Position numbers and translations under genes: made by a program. The notes beneath the pieces were generated by a model. The model had not been told where the DNA came from. It worked only from the letters and a program-made list of their open reading frames with translations, and searched no databases. Of a stretch of DNA of 58,613 nucleotides, positions 3,723 to 54,306 are shown one piece after another. The DNA comes from a virus. The stretch is from the IMG/VR virus record IMGVR_UViG_3300030102_005973, positions 1-58,613 of that record; one strand, 5' to 3'. The stretch's first letter is position 1, and every line of letters begins with the position of its first letter.

Positions 3723-6700
3723 TTACTTGTATAAATCTTCGAGAAGTTCTTTCTCAATATCTTTAATTTCTTTTTCTAACTTTTTTATTTCTGGATCCTG
3801 CTCTTCTGCTTTTATTTCATCATATAAGTCTGGAAACAGCATCTTTAGTTCTTTATCAGCAACCCTTGAACTTCTTTGTCTTTTTTTCCTGCCCTTGATA
3901 GCATACTCAGAGAAGTTAAATAACCTGAGAATAGCCTCACCCATATCTTTTGAATCTAAAACCTTACTGTAGTTATTAACTAACTTTTTTACTGTTAATA
4001 AAGGCAGTCCAGAAGCTTGAGCCAACTCAAGGTAAAAGTCATTCATGTACTGAGCTTTCAACCGAGGATCTTTGGTACGTTCGGCTTTATTAAACTTCTC
4101 TGTCACCGCTTTTGCAATAGCCAAAATACCAACATCTTTACTTGCCGTCCATGGTTTACCAGTAAGTTTATCTCCTAAAGTAGTAAAAACTTGTCCCCAA
4201 ATAAATATAGCATTTAGATTTCCTATTATAGCTGCTCTCCACAAGTCTTCGTCATCATCATCTCTAAACTCTCTTAAAAGCCCAGGAAGTCCTAGGGTTA
4301 CATATTGGAATAACACAGGCATAAATATGTGATACATAACAAATGTACGTATGTTTTCGCCTATAGTTCCTTTGCCAGCCTGGCGATCCCAAGCTAAAAG
4401 CTTTCTATTCAAGGCCCTAACAGCTTGGATTTCCTTTCTAAAATATTGTTTTGGTGTTGTTAAGAACATGTTAGCGGCTCTTGTAAGCGGTCCTTTTGTT
4501 TGATAAAAGTCCTTATCTTGAAGGTCGCTCGACTGCTGGGTTCTTTTTGTATCCCTTTCAAACTTTATAATTGCATGATCAATGGCTTCTTGTTCAGTTG
4601 CGTTAGGATTATTCTTTTTAAACTGATCTTTGTAATAAGAATAGTTTGGAGCTCCCCCTAACATTATCGCTGTCCGGTCACCCACTATAACTTGTGCCAT
4701 TAAAAAGTTTACAATCCAATCTTTAGTTCTTGCACCTAGTGGTAAAACTTTGTTGGCTTCGTTTTCACTATAGTTCTCTATTTGTCTTAATATGGAATTG
4801 TTGTTTCTATCCTGCATGTATACAGAATTATCCCTAATTTCTTTGAACACCTGGAGTTGTTGGCTTTTATTTTTAGCAGCATATTTAAGCCAATTAGCTA
4901 TGCCTATGTCATTAGCATATGTAAATAATGAGGTTAACTGCTTGATCATAATCACCGGAGAAATACCCAGTCTTGAAATCAAAAAGGCTGTATTCAAACC
5001 ATCTAAAAGAGGTGTGTAATAACTTTTTTCCCTACCTCGGCTCGCAATCTTTTTAATGGCATCGTCTATTAAACTATTTATTCTCTGCCCATGTATATTT
5101 CTTATTGCATCTTTGATATACTGGTTGGTGAATAGTTTGTTTATATCTCTAATAGCAGAAGAATATGCAGCAAAATACTCCATGTCATCAATGTAATTTG
5201 TAAGTGCAGTAGTTCCGTCCGTATAAATTATTTTCTTATTATTTCTGCTCCTAGCTTTAGTGGAAGCCGAACCAACCGCAGTTTGCATAATTCCTTGATC
5301 ACCAAGTAAATCTAACTCATTAGGAGCAGTTCCTTCTCTTACTAAATAACCTGCATAATATTTATTCATCGGCAGGTCAGTTCTATATATTTTCTTATAA
5401 GCTTCGTTGTAATGAGTGTATAAGGTTGGATATAAAACATTGACTTGCCAGTCGGCAAACCTTTTTAGGTCAGGATCAATGTAGTTTTCAATCTCTTCCA
5501 TGATCCTATCAGTTTGTTCTCCATACATAGCTTCAAAAGCACCCCTGTTAGCAGGATCTTTAAACTGATTGTACATGTAGTACAGTTGATTTTGAGACTG
5601 ATATATTTCCTCTTCGTCTATAATGTTATCAACCTTCTGTTTCTTATCTACACTTGTAGGGTCTTTTTCATATTCTTGTTGCGCCTTAGCAACTCTCTCT
5701 GGGTTTTTATATATACCTGTTGCTTCAAGTTGACTAAACTGTTTGTTTCTTTTTCTCCAGTTAGCACCTAAATAGTTGGCCATTTCTTTATCCAGCAACG
5801 TAGACAATACCAGTCTTCTTTTTTTAAACTCTCTTGAAGCTGCATCTATTTTATCAGTCACCAATACTTGAGCTCTACCACCAAACAGCTCCCCTGGTAA
5901 AGAAGATATTCTATCCATCAAGCCATCTAAAGCCTCCTGCGATCCAAAGAAAAAATTATCAATCTCTCGCATAATATTTCTTACTAATGTGGCTGCCCTG
6001 TTCTTAACTTTTCTTCGGTTAGTTGCATTGTTACGCGCAAACTTTTCGTTTTCAAGCTGTTCATTTAAGTCTGGGTCGTCCAGATTTAATTTATTGCCTG
6101 TTATGTCGTAGTAAAGTTCAGCAAATTGTCTTCGATATTCTTGCGCTTGAGATTCAATCTGGGCTTTGAGAACCGATCGACCAAACTGAACCATACCAGA
6201 TAAGGCATCAAAAGCCTGATCTAACATCAACGTTTTGTTTGCATCTGTGTTTTCTAGAAGGGAAGCATTGTTTAGATTTATAGCTATTTGAAGATCTACC
6301 ATCTTGTTAACAACAAAAGGGTCTTGATTAGGGTCTTGAGCTAACTCTAAAAACTCTCTGTTCAAAGCTTCGTTCTTATCAGATATTTCCTCCTCTGTAG
6401 CTGTCGGTGGCAGAACATTATTAGTTATAGCTTCTATCCTTTTTCTAGTGTCTAGATCAATTTTTATAGCTTTTTTTCTGCCACTTACTAAAACCTCATA
6501 TTTACCGGTAAGGATTTTATTGATTTGATTTTGTAGAGCAACGTTATTCTTAGCCGTGGCTAAGTCTATAACCTCCTCCATTATGTTTTCAATATTAGCA
6601 TTGGTAGCCTGCTCAATCTTTTGAACTAGTTGCAACGCCTCCTTTTTGGTAAATATCGCAGGTGGTAAAGTCTTTCGCATGAAGTTACGCAGCTCTCTCT

Positions 6701-9700
6701 TGACCTTTTGCAAATCCCTTTGACCCTTTGATCTAGCTCTGACAAGAGCTCTGGCGGCTCTAATTTTAATTGCTATGTCTTTAGTTGGCCTCTGGTTTAG
6801 TGTCTTTTGCAGATCTGAAAGCATCAATGCCTGTTGTGTAGACAAAGTTTTTCTGGCTTTTGCTTCACCTTTTACCTTATACGTATCGGCTTCGTTTTTA
6901 TATTCGACTTGATTCTCTAAAAACGCAACAGCCTTATCCATGATTTGGGCGTCGGTCAATTTATTTTTTCGTCGATTGTTTAAGTTATTTTCTTTTTTGA
7001 TCAACGATTCTATCTTGTTGAAGAGTTTTAGACCAGCTTTAGCCCCTCCTTTTATATTTTTAAAACTCTCTGGCAGGGCTCCCAGTATCTCTGAGTCTAA
7101 CCCCATGAGCTCTTTTATATCTTTAACACGAAGCTTTTGTACACGTTTAAGATAATCAACAATCAATTCATCTCTAAAGCCAGCTTCTCTTCCTTCACGA
7201 ATATAATCAGCCGGCGTTCTTTGTTGTCTTCTTCTAGTGGTCTGAGCAAACGGGTTGAACTTTCTTCCATCACGTACAAGAAACAATCCTCCTCCTCTAC
7301 CAAACTGATCTTCTCTAGCTCGTCTTGCTTCTAACCCGAATGGAGCTACAGCTTTACGCAACTGTGACAGGTTCGCGGTCTTGGGTATAAAGCCTTGGTT
7401 GTCCATATTATACTGCTGGGCCACCTGCTCTATTGTCCTTTGTTGTCTTCTTTGAGTTTTGTACGAATCAATGTTGAGATTTAAAAGAATAATTTCACTA
7501 GTAGTTCCGTCATCAAATTGAGTAACTATTCCATCGTATCCATCAGCTTTTAAAGATTCCGTTAATTGTATCCCTTTTTGGTTATTATATTTTTTAGACA
7601 AATTTCGTTTATATTCTATAAGAGTATCGTCAGTAATTTTAATAACTAAGGGGTTTTTTATTTCAATTTGACCTGATTCAAATCCTTGCGGTATAAATCC
7701 CTCCTGAACCTCTGTGACATAAATACCTGCAGGTTCAACGTCTTGCCCAAACTCTGACCCTCTATCTAAAGCTTTTTCTGTATTTCTTTTATAAGTAAAA
7801 TTAAAAGGTTTACCAGTTTGAATTTTTTGCTGTCTTCTTTGTCTTGGAGATATTTCTCGAATACCTGAACCATATGGAGCTACTGCCTGAGACTTTTCTT
7901 GTTGTGTAAGTTGTTTTTTATACTTATCAACCATCTCTTGAGGCATAATGTCAAAAGCATCTACCTTGACATCTGGCACTCCTAACACCTCTCCTAAAAC
8001 TTCATTGTTATATGTAGAATGCTGTGAACCATCTCGAGCTGAAGTGGGTTTAATAACTAGCATTACATCATTTATGTTAAAATCATTTGCCTTATAAAAT
8101 CCATCGCGTAAATCGTTCGGGTTTATAAAACCATCTTTTGATTTTATAAGTTTGTGGAACTCCGTATTTGGCGTACCCTGTTGGTCAACCACAGCGTTTA
8201 AAAATGCTTTTCTTTGTGGACTATCTCTGAGAGCTTCCCAGCTATCAAAATTATTTAAGACGTCTCGTATAGCTTTTACAGGGTTTGTAGCCAATGCATC
8301 AGCCTTAAATGTATCATAATCTCCAAGTTTACTTATAAATACATCGTAAACTTTTTTATTAAACAGCAGGCTACGTTCAGGAGAACCACTTATAATAAAC
8401 AAATAATCTGCGAGATTTATATTTTTTTCAATAGACTTTGTAGATTTTGAGCTTGCCCATACCGCCTCACCATCGAAAGCATAGCTTGGACCAGCGTCAA
8501 GTTGGATGCCTTCAAACTCTCCTAAACCTAACTGATCAGCTACCCAAAACCAAACCTTTTCTTTTTTTGCGTTGATGTCCTCTATTAAAGACATGATATC
8601 AATTCTTTTGTCGGGGGTGACAAGTGACAACGGATATGACTCCTCAAACTCAATTTGCTGCCTTGGCTTTGGCACTCTTATTTCTGTAGGGTCTCCTACC
8701 GGATTTGTGCCATCTTCTAAAATCTCAACATCACCCTCAGTAATCTCTTCTCCTGTCGTAACTTTTGTTGATAAAGTATTTAATAAATCAATTACATCGT
8801 TGTCGGTTTTTGTAAACTCTGTTAGATTAAGATCAACACCTAAAGTTCTAGCCAAGTCCTCTATAAATTTTATAACAATATTCTTTTGCGGTTTGGTCAG
8901 TGTCTGATACTCAGAAGCCATTATTCCAATAAGCTCTGCAAGCCTCTCTTCGTTCTGCAACTCGCTTACATCCTGGTATGATTCTGCAAACGTGTCTATC
9001 CTTCTAGCCAGTTCGCTATCGTTAGATAAAGTTTTGCGAACAGACATCATCATTTTTTCAGCAACCTGAGCTGCTTTAGGATCTGTCTTAATTTTACTTA
9101 AAAATACAGCGTGAAAAACCTCGTGGGGAACAGTGGTCCCAGTGGCTTTTGACAGATTTATATGTATGGTATCGCCAATAAGTTCACCTCTTCCTGGAGC
9201 AGCAAACTTTAAGTATTCCGATTCATTCTCATGTATTACAATTCGAGTGTTAGGTAGGAGATTTTTTATAGCACTTGCCGCTGTTCTGGCTATTTTAGTG
9301 ACGTTGTTTTCTCTTTGTATTTGTTCTGCACCTTTTTCAACTGTTTCACCTGCTCTATTTACACTTAGATTAGACTCCACTGTTTCGGTGGTCTCTTCTA
9401 CTTCTTCTCCAAAAAATGCATCAATATCTTGTTGTTCCTCCGTAAGCTGAGTCTCTGTCTCTACTTCCTGCTCTTGCTCTTCAACAAAGTCTGGAATAGG
9501 TTCTTCAACCGTCTGCTCCTTAGTCAAGACTTGTTCTATTTGATTGTCAATCTGTTGTATTTGTTGATCAATATTACCAACAGTTGCTGGGTCTTTGTCT
9601 GCTTTTTCATTTTGTAATTCTTGCTTACTTGCTAAAAGACCTAATATTTGTTGTTGCTTTTCAAGACTTATGTCTGTTGGTATTTGATTGGCTAAACCAG

Positions 9701-46638: not shown

Positions 46639-47088
46639 ATGAATATTTCAAGGCAAAGAGACTTCCTCAAATACTGGAGAGTCATACGATACTTCGTAAT
46701 GAGAAAGTACAATGTAAACACCCAGGAGCTTGACATGCTCCTGTTTTTGTATAGCGAAGAATACTTTAATGTCGACAAGTTCAAAGAGTTCAACTCAGTG
46801 CTAGGGTGGAATAAGAATCGTTTTAACAAACTAAAGAAGGAGGGTTGGATTGAAACAATAAAACCTTACCGGTTCGGTGGCCCAAAGGCTTTGTATGGCC
46901 TTTCATATAAAACACTAAGAATGATTGGATCTATATATGATTTACTAGAAGGGAAACCAATACCAACGTCAAAGTCAAAGAACCCTATCTTTTTGGCCAA
47001 GGCTGGATACTCAGATAAAGTTTACAGAAAACAAATTTTAAAAATGAACGAGGCTATACGACAACGACAATATCCGATTCCCGAATAA
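46639..47088 (+). CDS. Winged-helix-type DNA-binding protein
   Basis: 149 residues and the only plus-strand gene inside the late block. It starts ISRQRDFLKYWRVIRYFVMR and continues with QELDMLLFLYSEEYFN, NSVLGWNKNRFNKLKKEGWI and LYGLSYKTLRMIGSIYDLL, a helix-turn-helix plus wing layout like MarR/PadR-type regulators. I recall similar proteins in marine flavophages. It is a plausible switch regulator for the adjacent late genes. Its leader ATTAAATCTAAT before ATG is the shared leader. The last 35 bp overlap the convergent groES-like gene. Confidence 0.75.
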   Translation: MNISRQRDFLKYWRVIRYFVMRKYNVNTQELDMLLFLYSEEYFNVDKFKEFNSVLGWNKNRFNKLKKEGWIETIKPYRFGGPKALYGLSYKTLRMIGSIYDLLEGKPIPTSKSKNPIFLAKAGYSDKVYRKQILKMNEAIRQRQYPIPE

Positions 47089-47311
47089 TAGTAAATGGTT
47101 CATCATGTATAAGCATAGTATAACCCGCGCGTTTGTCGTAGTATATCTCACTATCTTTCTCGATAGCTACAACTTCAGTACCTATTGCAACGATCCTTCC
47201 CTTCTTATAGCGAAGTTGGTTGGCGTCTTCAGCAGAAAGCAAAAGTCCCGATGAGGTTTTAAGCTCCTCATCAATAGTTTTTATTACTACATATTTACCG
47301 ATTGGTTTCAT
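47054..47311 (-). CDS. groES: GroES-like co-chaperonin
   Basis: 85 residues. It starts KPIGKYVVIKTIDEELKTSS and continues GLLLSAEDANQLRYKKGRIV, then VVAIEKDSEIYYDKRAGYTM and a C-terminal ESDIVVVV. The barrel strands and the mobile-loop position (SSGLLLSAED) of Cpn10 are recognisable. It is shorter than the host protein by about 10 residues. It follows groEL with a 4-bp ATGA overlap and probably caps the phage-encoded chaperonin during capsid assembly. Confidence 0.85.
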   Translation of the reverse strand: MKPIGKYVVIKTIDEELKTSSGLLLSAEDANQLRYKKGRIVAIGTEVVAIEKDSEIYYDKRAGYTMLIHDEPFTIIRESDIVVVV

Positions 47312-48900
47312 TGGCTATCATATGTACGCGCCATAGTTACAATGGCGTTGGTTGATAATATTGAAACTGCCACAGATACAGCATTTTGAAGGGCAGTACG
47401 TGTAACTTTAAGCGGGTCTATAATTCCCATCTCAATCATATCGCCGGTTTTCCCAGTTTTTACATCAAGCCCGTGGCCTGTTTTATCTAAGAAATCAGGC
47501 GAAAAATCACTTCCAGCGTTTTGCAGTATCTGAGTCATAGGCGCTTGCAGCGCCTCCATCATGATCGCGTAAGCGATCGATTTTTTATTTTGATATTTTA
47601 TATCCTCAGCGGCCTCCCATAGTGCAAGCCCACCACCTGGCAGGATACCCTCAAGTAGTGCTGAACGAACCGCGCATACCGCATCATCAACCCGATCATA
47701 TAGCTCTTTCTGTTCTAGGTCAGTGTTACCACCTACGTTTATTACACCTATTCCACCGGTTAGTGACGCTATTCTAGACATAATAAAATCTTTGTCAGCC
47801 TTTTTAGTAGTTATCTTATGTGCATCCCACAGTTCTTCAACTCTTTTGTCAATGTCATCTTGACGAACTTTGTCCTCATTTTTTAGAATTATAGTGCTAT
47901 CTTTCCCCACTATTACCTTTGATGCTCTACCGAGATCTTTGAAAGTCATAAGACTTAGGTCATCACCTGTACTTTCAGAAAAATAAGTAGCACCTACCGA
48001 AAGAGCGATGTCATGCATCAGCTCGTGGCGTTTGTAACCAAAATTGGGAGGTATAATGGTACAAAGTTTCAGATTGTTCTTCATGACGTTTGCCGCCAAC
48101 GTGTTTGTTACGTTTTGAGAACACGGTGCTACTATTAATAGTTTTTTGTTCTCAGCGATTATTGGCTTTAGAACATTCTCAATCGATAGAATATTATTTA
48201 TATCAGAGTCAGATACCAAGACATAGGCGTCCTCAAGTATACACTCATCCTTTTTGTGGTTGTTTATAAACAGGTGGCTTGAGTATCCGCGATCAACTTT
48301 TATACCCTGGGTAGTCTCAAATGTGGTATCAGAAGTTTGGCTTTTCTCAACCGTTACAATACCGTTCTTGCCAACTGACTTGTAAGTGTCCGCTATAATT
48401 TTCCCTATCTCACTGTCATTGTTTGATGATATGGTCGCCACATCCAAAAGCTTCTTCTCACTTACAGGCTTTGACTTTTTACGAAGTTTGTCAACCACCT
48501 TCTCAGTGACTTTGACTAGCTCTCTCAATATCTCAGTCTTGTTATCTTTTGGCCCGATCATCTGAGTACCATGATCGACAAGTGCCCTGGTAAGTACAAT
48601 AGCTGTTGTGGTGCCATCACCCGCAATACTAGCGGTTCGCTCCGCAGCCTCCTTCATCATTTGCACCGACAGGTTCTCAACTGGATCAAGAAGCTGGATG
48701 CTTTTAGCTACTGTTACACCGTCTTTGGTAACAGTAATCCCATGGGTGTGATTAGGTGACTCAATCAAAACAGTATTTCCCATTGGACCTAATGTACTGC
48801 CAACTGCGCTTGCTAATTTATTTATACCTGATGTAAGTTTGTCTCTGCCGTCTTTGCCAAAGTGCAGATCCTTTGGTGAATATCCTCCCGTTTCATTCAT
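47308..48900 (-). CDS. groEL: GroEL-like chaperonin
   Basis: 530 residues. It has GINKLASAVGSTLGPMGNTV, the ATP-binding loop TKDGVTVAK and AGDGTTTA (about residues 93-100). The chain continues with ISSNNDSEIGKI, GKNGIVTVEKSQ, LTGGIGVINVGGNTD and GILPGGGLALWEA, then FLDKTGHGLDVKTGK. These are the equatorial and apical blocks of group I chaperonins. The Gly-Gly-Met tail of host GroEL is absent. It probably folds capsid or tail proteins, as with other phage chaperonins. It has a good promoter upstream (48931-48962). Confidence 0.95.
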   Translation of the reverse strand: MNETGGYSPKDLHFGKDGRDKLTSGINKLASAVGSTLGPMGNTVLIESPNHTHGITVTKDGVTVAKSIQLLDPVENLSVQMMKEAAERTASIAGDGTTTAIVLTRALVDHGTQMIGPKDNKTEILRELVKVTEKVVDKLRKKSKPVSEKKLLDVATISSNNDSEIGKIIADTYKSVGKNGIVTVEKSQTSDTTFETTQGIKVDRGYSSHLFINNHKKDECILEDAYVLVSDSDINNILSIENVLKPIIAENKKLLIVAPCSQNVTNTLAANVMKNNLKLCTIIPPNFGYKRHELMHDIALSVGATYFSESTGDDLSLMTFKDLGRASKVIVGKDSTIILKNEDKVRQDDIDKRVEELWDAHKITTKKADKDFIMSRIASLTGGIGVINVGGNTDLEQKELYDRVDDAVCAVRSALLEGILPGGGLALWEAAEDIKYQNKKSIAYAIMMEALQAPMTQILQNAGSDFSPDFLDKTGHGLDVKTGKTGDMIEMGIIDPLKVTRTALQNAVSVAVSILSTNAIVTMARTYDSQ

Positions 48901-50098: not shown

Positions 50099-50132
50099 AC
50101 CATGAGAGACAAACAACATACTGAAATCAAAC

Positions 50133-50159
50133 GTAACTCACTCACTCTCAGTGAGTTAC
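50133..50159 (+). promoter_or_regulatory. Perfect 10-bp leader hairpin before the first early gene
   Basis: GTAACTCACT (50133-50142) pairs perfectly with AGTGAGTTAC (50150-50159) around a 7-nt loop. It ends 20 nt before the ATG at 50180. It has no T tract, so it is not a terminator; it could control translation or protect the mRNA 5' end. If translation starts at 50102 instead, it would be inside the coding region. Confidence 0.6.
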
Positions 50160-50179
50160 CTAACTTAAACCCTATAAAA

Positions 50180-50491
50180 ATGAAAGCAAAGTATTACTAC
50201 ATTGATTATTCAAGTGAAACCAAAACTTATGACGTCATAGATTGTACTGATCCAGTTGACCAACCAATTGTTGGAAGTTTTGCTTATGAGGAAAATGCAA
50301 TCAAATTCCACCAAAAATTAAGACGCAATGAAGTATGGAAAAGAATGATATCAAAGATGTCAACAGAAGAAATTCAAACAAGATGCATTTTAGTTACAGC
50401 GTCACAAAAACAAGGTTTAGGTGATTCGGAAGAAAACGATACTTTTTACAATTTGTTAAATCACGAATATCACCTTAGACTTGAAGATTAA
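50180..50491 (+). CDS. Hypothetical protein, first gene of the ribozyme-containing operon
   Basis: 103 residues from the ATG at 50180 (KAKYYYIDYSSETKTYDVID). An upstream in-frame ATG at 50102 would add 26 polar residues but would place a perfect hairpin inside the gene, so I prefer 50180. It has a mixed alpha/beta pattern with a helical middle (AIKFHQKLRRNEVWKRMISK) and an acidic C-terminus. No family recognised. Its last codon and stop (GAT TAA) form the 5' strand of stem I of the hammerhead ribozyme at 50486-50539. Confidence 0.65.
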   Translation: MKAKYYYIDYSSETKTYDVIDCTDPVDQPIVGSFAYEENAIKFHQKLRRNEVWKRMISKMSTEEIQTRCILVTASQKQGLGDSEENDTFYNLLNHEYHLRLED

Positions 50492-50539
50492 CTGATGAGG
50501 ATTCAATATCCGAAACTATCCGAAAGGATAGTCTTAATC
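50486..50539 (+). ncRNA. Type I hammerhead self-cleaving ribozyme
   Basis: All parts are present in order. Stem I 5' strand GATTAA (50486-50491); core CTGATGA (50492-50498); stem II GGAT/ATCC with loop TCAAT (50499-50511); core GAAA (50512-50515). Stem III is ACTATCC/GGATAGT capped by a GAAA tetraloop (50515-50532). Then C17 at 50533 and stem I 3' strand TTAATC (50534-50539). The A15.1-U16.1 pair and G10.1-C11.1 pair are present. The predicted cut is after C50533, leaving a 5'-OH RNA that starts 23 nt before the ArdC-like ATG. Stem I is open to the transcript, so this is type I. Confidence 0.9.
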
Positions 50540-50556
50540 AACAAAAATTATTAATT

Positions 50557-51510
50557 ATGAATAATCAAGACAAAATTTACAAAAAGGTAAATGACATCGT
50601 CCTAAAGGGACTGAAAAAAGACGGAATGAAATGGTTCATGCCATGGAAATCGGGTGATGAAAATCAACCCATGAATTATAACTACAAAACCTACTATCGT
50701 GGTTTCAATGTGTTTATGCTTAACGCAGTTATGATGGAGCAAGGATACGAGCATAACCAATGGATCACACTAAAGAAATGTAAAGAGATTGGTGGATCGA
50801 TCAAGGATGGTCAGTTTGGCAAAACTACTGATGTGTTCAAATGGAACGTAGGTTATTATGATATCAAGAAAAAATGCTATGTGCCAACCAAGGATTATAA
50901 GAAGATCAATAAATCAGAGGAAATTGTAATTGATGGTAAAATCCAAAAACGTTACAGAACTACATTCTCTATTAGATATTGGCAAGTCTATAACATTGGG
51001 CAATGCAATGGCATTGAGCCAATCGTATTTGATCAGTCTGAGATCACCAAGGTGAATGAGCCAATCAAGGATGCTGATGATCTTGCGAAAAGCTATGTAG
51101 ATCGAGATGGTAAGCTAAGACTTGAACATCTACGTGATGGTGCATTTTACAATGTAGCTAAAGACATGGTCAATATGCCTAAACTTGAAACGTTTGTGGA
51201 CTCTGATTCGTACTACAAAGTGCTTTTCCATGAGCTAGCCCATTCAACTGGACACAATGATCGAATGGATCGTAAAAGTCTTACAGAAGTCTCCTATTGG
51301 GGTGATAACACCTATGCCAAGGAGGAACTGGTCGCTGAGATATCTGCGATGTACATCTCAGGGATGTTGGGACTTGATCCGAAAGACTCTGATCAGAATA
51401 GTGTGGCCTATATCAAAGGATGGTGTAAACACCTAAGCGATAAGCCGAAAGAATGCCTATACGCCATGCAACAAGCTACCAAAGTGGTTGCCTACATCCA
51501 AGGTAAATAA
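50557..51510 (+). CDS. ArdC-like antirestriction protein with zincin domain
   Basis: 317 residues. The N-terminal domain (about 1-150) has KKDGMKWFMPWKSGDENQPM and YYRGFNVFMLNAV, typical of the ArdC N-terminal single-strand DNA-binding domain. The C-terminal domain has FHELAHSTGHNDRMDR, giving HExxH at residues 225-229 and a third ligand area in KEELVAEISAMY. ArdC-type proteins protect incoming DNA from restriction; an early position in the operon fits. It is translated from an A-rich leader directly downstream of the ribozyme cut. Confidence 0.9.
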   Translation: MNNQDKIYKKVNDIVLKGLKKDGMKWFMPWKSGDENQPMNYNYKTYYRGFNVFMLNAVMMEQGYEHNQWITLKKCKEIGGSIKDGQFGKTTDVFKWNVGYYDIKKKCYVPTKDYKKINKSEEIVIDGKIQKRYRTTFSIRYWQVYNIGQCNGIEPIVFDQSEITKVNEPIKDADDLAKSYVDRDGKLRLEHLRDGAFYNVAKDMVNMPKLETFVDSDSYYKVLFHELAHSTGHNDRMDRKSLTEVSYWGDNTYAKEELVAEISAMYISGMLGLDPKDSDQNSVAYIKGWCKHLSDKPKECLYAMQQATKVVAYIQGK

Positions 51511-51567
51511 ATCCGGGATTGGATCATGGAGGGGATCGTTTCCCCTCCCCGGATCGACAATATTGTC
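51511..51567 (+). ncRNA. Structured intercistronic RNA element between the two ribozyme sites
   Basis: Directly after the ArdC stop. Outer stem ATCCGG/CCGGAT (51511-51516, 51549-51554), an 11-nt one-sided bulge, an inner stem GGAGGGGA/TCCCCTCC (51528-51535, 51541-51548) with loop TCGTT, then the palindrome GACAATATTGTC (51556-51567). It has no hammerhead core and no T tract. It is GC-rich against the AT-rich surroundings and lies in the same place relative to the shared leader as both ribozymes. It could be an mRNA stabiliser, an RNase site or an unrecognised ribozyme. Confidence 0.6.
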
Positions 51568-51597: not shown

Positions 51598-52083
51598 ATG
51601 AAAATCAATTTTATTAAGTATGAACATTCCCACGGTGGTAGGGAAAAGTATTTTCCAGTCGGTAAGAAGAAAGATGGAGTTGGCGATTGTGTAATAAGAG
51701 CAGTCGCACTATCATTGGAAATGGATTACATGGAGGCTTTTAAAGATTTAATGGATGTCGCAGTTGAGAAAGGGATTCCTTACGCTAATAGTCAAAGGGT
51801 TTATGAGTCTTACCTAGATAACAAAGGATGGACTAAAAAATCCTTGAAACAAGGTAAGAGTTGGTTACCAATGTGGAAACATAAAAGGTTTTTAGATGTT
51901 AACAAAAACTATATTTTTTATGTTAGAGTTGGATTTAGGACACATCTTACATCAGTTGTAAAGGGTATTAATAAAGACACATGGTTATGTCAAGAAAGCA
52001 TGGCATATGCAATGTATGAAAGTCCATGTTTAAAGGGTCATCCTGAAACGCTTGATTGCGAATGTAAAAACGAGAGATCATGA
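51598..52083 (+). CDS. Predicted papain-like cysteine-protease-fold protein
   Basis: 161 residues. GDCVIRAVALSLEMDYMEAF (residues 29-48) has the DC-x-xRA nucleophile region with Cys31. RTHLTSVVKGINKDTW (115-130) gives His116 and Asp127. This pattern fits a widespread family of small phage proteins predicted to have a papain-like fold. Catalytic function is unproven. It is the first gene after the structured element at 51511-51567 and overlaps the next gene by 4 bp. Confidence 0.6.
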   Translation: MKINFIKYEHSHGGREKYFPVGKKKDGVGDCVIRAVALSLEMDYMEAFKDLMDVAVEKGIPYANSQRVYESYLDNKGWTKKSLKQGKSWLPMWKHKRFLDVNKNYIFYVRVGFRTHLTSVVKGINKDTWLCQESMAYAMYESPCLKGHPETLDCECKNERS

Positions 52084-52337: not shown

Positions 52338-52355
52338 GGGAGGAGTAATCCTCCC
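52338..52355 (+). other. Hairpin abutting the type III ribozyme
   Basis: GGGAGGA (52338-52344) pairs with TCCTCCC (52349-52355) around a GTAA tetraloop, with no gap to the ribozyme stem III strand. After cleavage at 52361 this hairpin would be near the 3' end of the upstream mRNA and could shield it from 3' exonucleases. Confidence 0.7.
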
Positions 52356-52406
52356 TCTGTCGATAGGTGTGTGCCTATCCTGATGAGATCAAAAGGTCGA
52401 AACAGA
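52356..52406 (+). ncRNA. Type III hammerhead self-cleaving ribozyme
   Basis: Order of parts: stem III strand TCTGT (52356-52360), C17 at 52361 (cut site), stem I GATAGG/CCTATC with loop TGTGTG (52362-52379). Then core CTGATGA (52380-52386), stem II GATC/GGTC with loop AAAA (52387-52398), core GAA (52399-52401) and stem III strand ACAGA (52402-52406), pairing with 52356-52360. The G10.1-C11.1 and A15.1-U16.1 pairs are present. Stem III is open to the transcript, so this is a type III permutation, different from the type I copy 1.9 kb upstream. It lies 3 bp before the shared leader and 22 bp before the ATG at 52429. Confidence 0.9.
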
Positions 52407-52428: not shown

Positions 52429-52710
52429 ATGTTACATTCAAAATTCAGTTTATCATTTGATACAGATAATCAGATGGTATCGATTTACATTGGCTATGAA
52501 GATAAGTATGGAAAATCTTTCATTGCACCAACCTTTCATTTCAATGACTATGGTAAATTAATTATTCCTCCCAACACCGAGAGAGGATACAACAGGTCAA
52601 CCTTTAGCTATTTAGCAAGACACGTAAAAACTAAGGTAGCTGATTTCAAAAAACATATTGAAGATGAATATCTTCAAGAACTGATTATTAAGTTAGAACA
52701 ACAGATATGA
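52429..52710 (+). CDS. Small hypothetical protein
   Basis: 93 residues, LHSKFSLSFDTDNQMVSIYI then a charged helix at the end (VKTKVADFKKHIEDEYLQEL). Mixed beta and helix; no family recognised. It is the first gene after the type III ribozyme and overlaps the next by 4 bp (ATGA). Confidence 0.65.
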   Translation: MLHSKFSLSFDTDNQMVSIYIGYEDKYGKSFIAPTFHFNDYGKLIIPPNTERGYNRSTFSYLARHVKTKVADFKKHIEDEYLQELIIKLEQQI

Positions 52711-54221: not shown

Positions 54222-54254
54222 AAAAACTATTTTTAGTTTTTGTTGTTTGTTGAG

Positions 54255-54283
54255 GGAGGGGCAGAAATGTTCCTCCTTTTTTT
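54255..54283 (+). terminator. Rho-independent terminator closing the ribozyme-containing operon
   Basis: An 8-bp stem GGAGGGGC (54255-54262) with GTTCCTCC (54269-54276), including two G-U pairs. The loop is AGAAAT and is followed by seven T, about 35 bp after the last stop of the small-gene run. Confidence 0.8.
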
Positions 54284-54306
54284 ATTTTTATTTACCCAAA
54301 AAAAAA

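Follow-up and report, generated by a model that had tools for sequence, protein, structure and literature searches.

Interchangeable cleavage signals placed between genes probably cut one long operon RNA at its gene junctions in the phage described here, judging from its sequence and from those of related phages. The window, by which we mean the whole analysed stretch of 58,613 nucleotides of the IMG/VR record IMGVR_UViG_3300030102_005973, carries three different RNA cutting signals in the same operon, namely two hammerhead ribozymes and a stripped-down tRNA look-alike, around an ArdC-like antirestriction gene. The operon has the following features, all on the plus strand.

50102..50491 (+): 129-aa ORF of unknown function, without a match in Pfam or PHROG (ORF list); its TAA stop lies within hammerhead stem I
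50486..50539 (+): type I hammerhead ribozyme (sequence, fold, descriptor with shuffled controls, independent covariance model)
50534..50556 (+): unstructured, A/U-rich ArdC leader of 23 nt with a predicted 5'-OH end after cleavage (sequence)
50557..51510 (+): ArdC-like antirestriction gene (Pfam PF08401 and PF18818; phrog_7245, anti-restriction protein)
51512..51553 (+): mini tRNA-like element of 42 nt (covariance model R1, class covariation)
51555..51567 (+): small hairpin CGACAAUAUUGUC, directly 3' of the tRNA-like element (sequence)
51598..52083 (+): 161-aa ORF of unknown function, phrog_3754, 3' of the tRNA-like element (ORF list, PHROG)
52338..52355 (+): hairpin GGGAGGA-GUAA-UCCUCCC, immediately 5' of the type III hammerhead (sequence; kept in locus L001)
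52356..52406 (+): type III hammerhead UCUGUC^GAUAGG...CUGAUGA-GAUC-AAAA-GGUC-GAAACAGA (descriptor)
52429..52710 (+): 93-aa ORF, directly 3' of the type III hammerhead (ORF list)
54252..54289 (+): intrinsic terminator, a 12-bp hairpin followed by a T-run, the probable end of the operon

Both of the domains by which ArdC is recognised, ArdcN and MPTase-PolyVal (a zincin-like metallopeptidase), were found in the product of the ArdC-like gene. By its terminase, the phage lies close to Flavobacterium phage elemo and to the Cellulophaga and Tenacibaculum phages, and the phages concerned are probably phages of Bacteroidota. Neither the window region nor three loci rich in elements had a DNA-level relative among deposited phages. 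The source of the window is described as a marine phage. Upstream of the operon, the window has a GroEL-like chaperonin gene (phrog_5725, 47054-48900, minus strand) adjoined by a small ORF of GroES size; the related record MW202828 has an annotated pair of groEL and a 10-kDa chaperonin.

Hammerhead ribozymes in the operon and in other phages

By sequence and fold, positions 50486-50539 are a genuine and complete type I hammerhead for which self-cleavage is predicted. Stem I (GAUUAA/UUAAUC, 6 bp) has the open end, stem II (GGAU/AUCC, 4 bp) includes the G10.1-C11.1 pair and is closed by loop II of the sequence UCAAU, and stem III (ACUAUCC/GGAUAGU, 7 bp) includes the A15.1-U16.1 pair (U50532) and is capped by a GAAA tetraloop. 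The core consists of CUGAUGA and of GAA 3' of stem II, and C17 satisfies the H at position 17. Read directly from the sequence, the predicted cut falls between C50533 (C17) and U50534, 23 nt upstream of the ArdC ATG at 50557. The upstream small gene ends within stem I, its TAA stop codon (50489-50491) being immediately next to the core. The minimum free energy fold of the segment is exactly the hammerhead structure (-12.9 kcal/mol, z -2.5). A sequence-only reading of this DNA had already claimed a complete type I hammerhead with these invariants, boundaries and helix lengths, a GNRA loop on stem III, a cut at C50533 that lies 23 nt before the start codon (leader 50534-50556), and a place between a small gene and an ArdC-like gene, all of which is borne out by the letters themselves and, for the two genes, by the 129-aa ORF and the ArdC domains. 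It had missed the stop-codon overlap, the type III hammerhead, the tRNA-like element and the replacement of the hammerhead in relatives.

A descriptor covering both hammerhead types (I and III) matched twice in the whole window, at the two elements listed above, and gave 0 matches in 40 shuffled windows on both strands and 0 matches in 8.45 Mb of shuffled phage loci. The search of the window with Rfam at the gathering score returned no match; the best Rfam score for the type I copy came from RAGATH-1-hammerhead (RF03152), which gave 22 bits where 56 are required, and RF00163 (Hammerhead_1) gave no match to it. In contrast, an independent covariance model trained on 14 other phage type I hammerheads, with the window excluded, scored 50486-50539 at 63.6 bits (E 1.2e-14) and found no other match in the window. 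The silence of Rfam lies with its model and does not mean that the hammerhead is absent; the gathering score is a threshold of the library and no chemical feature that defines a hammerhead.

The type III hammerhead at 52356-52406 has the core and three helices, with stem III open, and its predicted cut lies after C52361. Its copy in L001 has a change from G-U to A-U in stem II, and the unrelated loci L052, L060 and L062 share the type III architecture with different stems; the changes in these copies and in that of L001 are compensating. Once this ribozyme cuts, the hairpin at 52338-52355 would form the 3' end of the upstream message.

We searched viral contigs for the type I class with patterns in which the core and a few bases beside it are prescribed and the remaining stem pairs are free. 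Full hammerheads made up 15 of the 17 matches of the first core pattern, and among the matches listed 121 of 132 non-redundant ones fold as full hammerheads. An alignment of nine type I sequences has 98.6% of its cells paired, compared with 74% when shuffled and 27-41% when slid, and 11 of its 16 pairs have changes on both sides. The placement of these ribozymes is strict: among the matches listed, 96 of 117 hammerheads have the end of a long upstream ORF at -17 to +4 relative to the core, compared with 50 of 585 random positions, and an ATG follows 15-45 nt past the cut in 111 of 117, at a median of 22 nt. In the same listed set, the stop codon is a UAA immediately followed by CUGAUGA in 33 of 117 and lies inside C-UGA-UGA in 19 of 117. 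The window copy fits this class, because its stop codon lies inside stem I and its leader has 23 nt, next to the class median. As many as nine type I hammerheads occur on one contig, L132 has six that are nearly all intergenic, and the L089 hammerhead exceeds the RF00163 threshold. Hairpins 3' of type I hammerheads are not enriched (17 of 115 versus 14 shuffled).

Loop II is mostly UNARU across the type I class, and in about 90% of its members stem I is flanked by an A on both sides; the window conforms in both, and these features may point to a contact of loop II with stem I that is non-canonical. Across the class there was no support for a pseudoknot in which loop II pairs with the flanks of stem I by Watson-Crick pairs, and the UUGA/UCAA match in the window, considered as such a pseudoknot, was rejected as not above expectation class-wide.

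Two cultured phages hold unannotated type I hammerheads at gene junctions. One is Cellulophaga phage phi18:3 (KC821620, 21904-21958, minus strand), at about 0.9 kb from an ArdA gene. Its host is Cellulophaga baltica #18. The other is Flavobacterium phage elemoA_7-9A (NC_055852, 17290-17347, minus strand; host Flavobacterium sp. BAL314), whose copy has one A-A mismatch in stem III and is overlain on the opposite strand by an annotated ORF of 35 codons.

A minimal tRNA-like element

The stop codon of ArdC abuts the tRNA-like element, which starts at 51512. An acceptor stem of 6 bp (UCCGGG/CCCGGA) and a T-arm of 6 bp with a 7-nt loop (GAGGGG-AUCGUUU-CCCCUC) form a continuous stack of 12 bp, and a linker of 11 nt, AUUGGAUCAUG, replaces the D-arm, the anticodon arm and the variable loop. 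Across the class the linker has 10-11 nt with no D-stem or anticodon arm, and the elements have no encoded CCA, the tail being mostly N-C-U/A-A. The covariance model R1, whose 46 training sequences include the window copy, finds it at 51.2 bits (E 2.8e-11) as the sole match in the window; neither ARAGORN nor Rfam calls the element.

The 46 examples have 97.4% of cells paired, versus 56.8% when shuffled and 46-54% when slid, and 11 of the 12 pairs change on both sides, with a covariation score of 1.01 versus 0.20. As a control for circularity, the acceptor register was tested on pattern matches that did not demand an acceptor stem: an acceptor of at least 5 bp was present in the exact register in 39 of 52 such matches, compared with 0-2 in slid registers. 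GG occupies one fixed place in all 52 of the elements with other linkers, where shuffled linkers would give 56%. Most class members have the T-loop UUCGAUU; the copies at L001 2885-2929 and L034 2979-3025 are regarded as typical elements. The copies of the window and L001 have the variant AUCGUUU, which departs from the canonical UUCRANN and may weaken recognition of the window element. A hairpin follows 55 of 161 elements versus 17 shuffled, and the mean minimum free energy after the elements is -4.1 versus -2.0 kcal/mol shuffled. Whole contigs hold up to ten of them, and L292 has eight, nearly all intergenic.

The elbow of tRNA is made by GG in the D-loop and UUCGA in the T-loop. RNase P and RNase Z are described as reading the stack of acceptor and T-arm together with the region of D-loop and T-loop contact (PMC4919913, PMC12630138). 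With its 12-bp stack, which is as long as that of a tRNA, its GG and its T-type loop, the element thus retains what these enzymes read and drops the rest. Its covariation indicates that it is a real RNA; it is apparently not a working tRNA.

To look for the element in prophages, a strict pattern for one linker type was run over 84,980 bacterial and archaeal species; it returned only one structured case, on a 4-kb contig. The element was absent from five phage records related through the terminase and so does not track the terminase lineage. Variants were seen in L034 (1285-1330, 1805-1851 and 3895-3940); their T-loop is altered, and the GG linker is either changed as well or has given way to a small hairpin. 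L023 has a dense run of about nine tRNA-like elements at 7380-9037 with linkers of 12-17 nt, in a stretch that holds few ORFs; this may be a tRNA array in decay or a class of its own.

Exchange at gene junctions and its explanation

The junction 5' of ArdC is occupied by the type I hammerhead in the window and by a tRNA-like element in L001, L002, L003 and L008; the ArdC proteins of L001-L003 are 75-77% identical to that of the window, that of L008 55% and that of L010 51%. L010 has a pistol ribozyme (RF02679, 67.5 bits, 2788-2854) one small ORF upstream of ArdC. The junction 3' of ArdC has tRNA-like elements in the window, L001-L003 and L010, and L003 has a type III hammerhead in addition. 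The sequence-only reading had named decay of the core or helices in homologues as evidence against it, and here the outcome was mixed: at this junction the hammerhead is absent from the closest relatives, L001-L003, which have the tRNA-like element there instead, and a decayed type I hammerhead lies at another junction of L003 (4584-4627, core CUAAUGA, stem III lost, 22.8 bits), its stem and loop II identical to the window copy. As the hammerhead itself is not kept in the closest relatives, no single element is essential. Hammerheads and tRNA-like elements occur together in 32 loci that form 12 clusters with no nucleotide similarity between clusters, and L264 has type III, type I and tRNA-like elements at three successive junctions. 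Not all hammerhead phages have the tRNA-like element, as it was absent from 14 contigs found with the first type I core pattern.

We propose that the operon at 50.1-54.3 kb is read as one long RNA that is cut at gene junctions by its built-in signals. The type I hammerhead would cleave itself after C50533, so that the ArdC message would begin with a 5'-OH end and a leader of 23 nt, and the message upstream would end in a folded ribozyme. The tRNA-like element 3' of ArdC would be cut by host RNase P and RNase Z, on which its cleavage probably depends, since it mimics the part of a pre-tRNA that these enzymes measure, and the type III hammerhead at 52356 would cut the third junction. The effect may be separate, more stable or separately translated messages. 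Hammerheads would leave a 5'-OH and a 2',3'-cyclic phosphate, and RNase P and RNase Z leave a 5' phosphate; the presence of a hairpin 3' of tRNA-like but not of type I elements would fit a need to shield the 5'-phosphate end and not the 5'-OH end. Because related phages swap kinds of element at the same junction, the conserved thing seems to be intergenic cleavage and not any one RNA. That unrelated RNAs sharing only cleavage replace each other, in sense orientation and between stop and start, is most simply read as selection for cleavage.

Other explanations were weighed as well. The stop codon that abuts or enters the ribozyme in 33 and 19 of the 117 listed hammerheads would bring a terminating ribosome onto the core and mask it, as expected if the hammerhead were a control device whose cleavage destabilises a flanking message or is tuned by upstream translation for differential dosage. 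However, the overlap could arise merely from close packing of the genes, no ligand-type domain is seen in the tRNA-like elements that take the hammerhead's place and the downstream genes differ, and we regard a control device as unlikely. It is less probable still that the elements are mainly structural, providing stable 3' or 5' ends that stop exonucleases or aid end formation, with cleavage unimportant and the tRNA-like elements being decoys or degenerate tRNAs. The excess of hairpins after tRNA-like elements (55 of 161 versus 17) and the hairpin preceding the type III hammerhead would suit such a role, but a plain stable hairpin needs neither the core bases nor the GG linker and T-type loop, which are kept while the stems vary freely, and self-cleavage is the sole property common to both hammerhead types and pistol.

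The patchy distribution, the differing elements at one junction and the decayed hammerhead in L003 might instead be the traces of cassettes that are selfish or tied to recombination, for example attachment sites or short repeats by which early genes are shuffled, with no RNA function. Compensatory changes in nearly all variable pairs, the sense orientation and the fixed spacing to the ATG are properties of an RNA and not of a DNA site, which makes this explanation very improbable. Finally, the type I and type III hammerheads flank the stretch from ArdC to ORF82 in the window, as they would if paired hammerheads freed internal segments to be ligated into circular RNAs. Mixed pairs of hammerhead and tRNA-like element could not ligate into circles, and circular products of clustered hammerheads were sought and not found by Perreault et al. 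(PMC3088659); we give this possibility hardly any weight. Intercistronic cleavage is the explanation that we prefer as the probable one.

A further element was observed in relatives, where it occupies ArdC junctions that have no hammerhead or tRNA-like element. It consists of CACC(A/U)A..., a variable hairpin of 7-10 bp and UUUUGGUGGUARAAA, appears to covary and stands about 20-35 nt before an ATG (L009 ~2900-2965 and ~3945-4005; L005 ~3935-3995 and ~6455-6515; L004 3950-4008; L008 1860-1912; also L054, L138, L177, L180 and L184). Rfam matched nothing in L009 at E<=2. Scanning with a pattern for the GGTGGTAGAAA element gave matches contaminated by coding sequence (FGGRK), and only about 13 of the 105 resemble the structured element. 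We consider it a candidate for a new processing element or ribozyme.

Relation to known systems

Previously, Perreault et al. 2011 described hammerheads flanking prophage genes, some of them next to ardA, demonstrated cleavage in vitro and for one array also in E. coli, and suggested that hammerheads process long phage transcripts (PMC3088659). The precise intergenic placement asserted by the sequence-only reading is supported here, and programmed mRNA processing is our best reading too; the idea itself is not new (PMC3088659). Like the window copy, the prophage hammerheads by ardA in Agrobacterium tumefaciens and Legionella are intergenic in polycistronic RNA near an antirestriction gene (PMC3088659). 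Unlike those prophages, the window has ArdC and not ArdA and belongs to probable Bacteroidota phages, and here one conserved type I subclass sits at the stop/start junction, is mixed with type III and is interchangeable with tRNA-like elements. The Rfam families RF00163 and RF03152 have the same three-helix core as the window copy, which falls below their thresholds. Pistol (RF02679), whose fold is unrelated, is likewise self-cleaving and lies in this region of the operon in L010; it is absent from the window.

RNase P is known to cut substrates other than tRNA, including the phage M3 and C4 RNAs, the T4 gene 32 mRNA, a polycistronic mRNA and minimal hairpin substrates (PMC11143913, PMC12710915). 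These phage and mRNA substrates are single cases, whereas here a covarying element recurs at many junctions in many phages. In the literature searched, which did not extend to preprints and many subscription journals, neither a minimal tRNA mimic that recurs between the genes of phages nor its exchange with ribozymes was found described. The tRNA-like punctuation and the swapping appear, provisionally, to be new; hammerheads between prophage genes and their role in mRNA processing had already been proposed.

Hammerheads were recognised in phages by 2011 at the latest, but their purpose is unproven; their interchange with a tRNA mimic at the same junction turns this into a sharp hypothesis, that the shared function is intergenic cutting. 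The widespread covarying element that Rfam and ARAGORN do not call is possibly a new kind of natural substrate for RNase P and RNase Z, and the cultured phages phi18:3 and elemoA are places where cleavage at junctions is testable.

A further parallel is the punctuation of mitochondrial transcripts, in which RNase P and RNase Z cut out the tRNAs between genes and so release the mRNAs. There, as here, tRNA shapes stand between genes; the phage element has about 42 nt and no D-stem or anticodon arm, and its processing is predicted. Unlike mitochondrial tRNAs, it alternates with ribozymes. We lean, by a small measure, towards a still broader view, in which the phages, probably of Bacteroidota, punctuate polycistronic mRNA with analogous but unrelated cutters that are freely exchanged, as a bacterial-virus counterpart of mitochondrial tRNA punctuation. 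The cutters would be hammerheads of types I and III, pistol, a minimal tRNA mimic that is reduced to the elbow and processed by RNase P and RNase Z of the host, and perhaps the undescribed GGUGGUAGAAA hairpin element.
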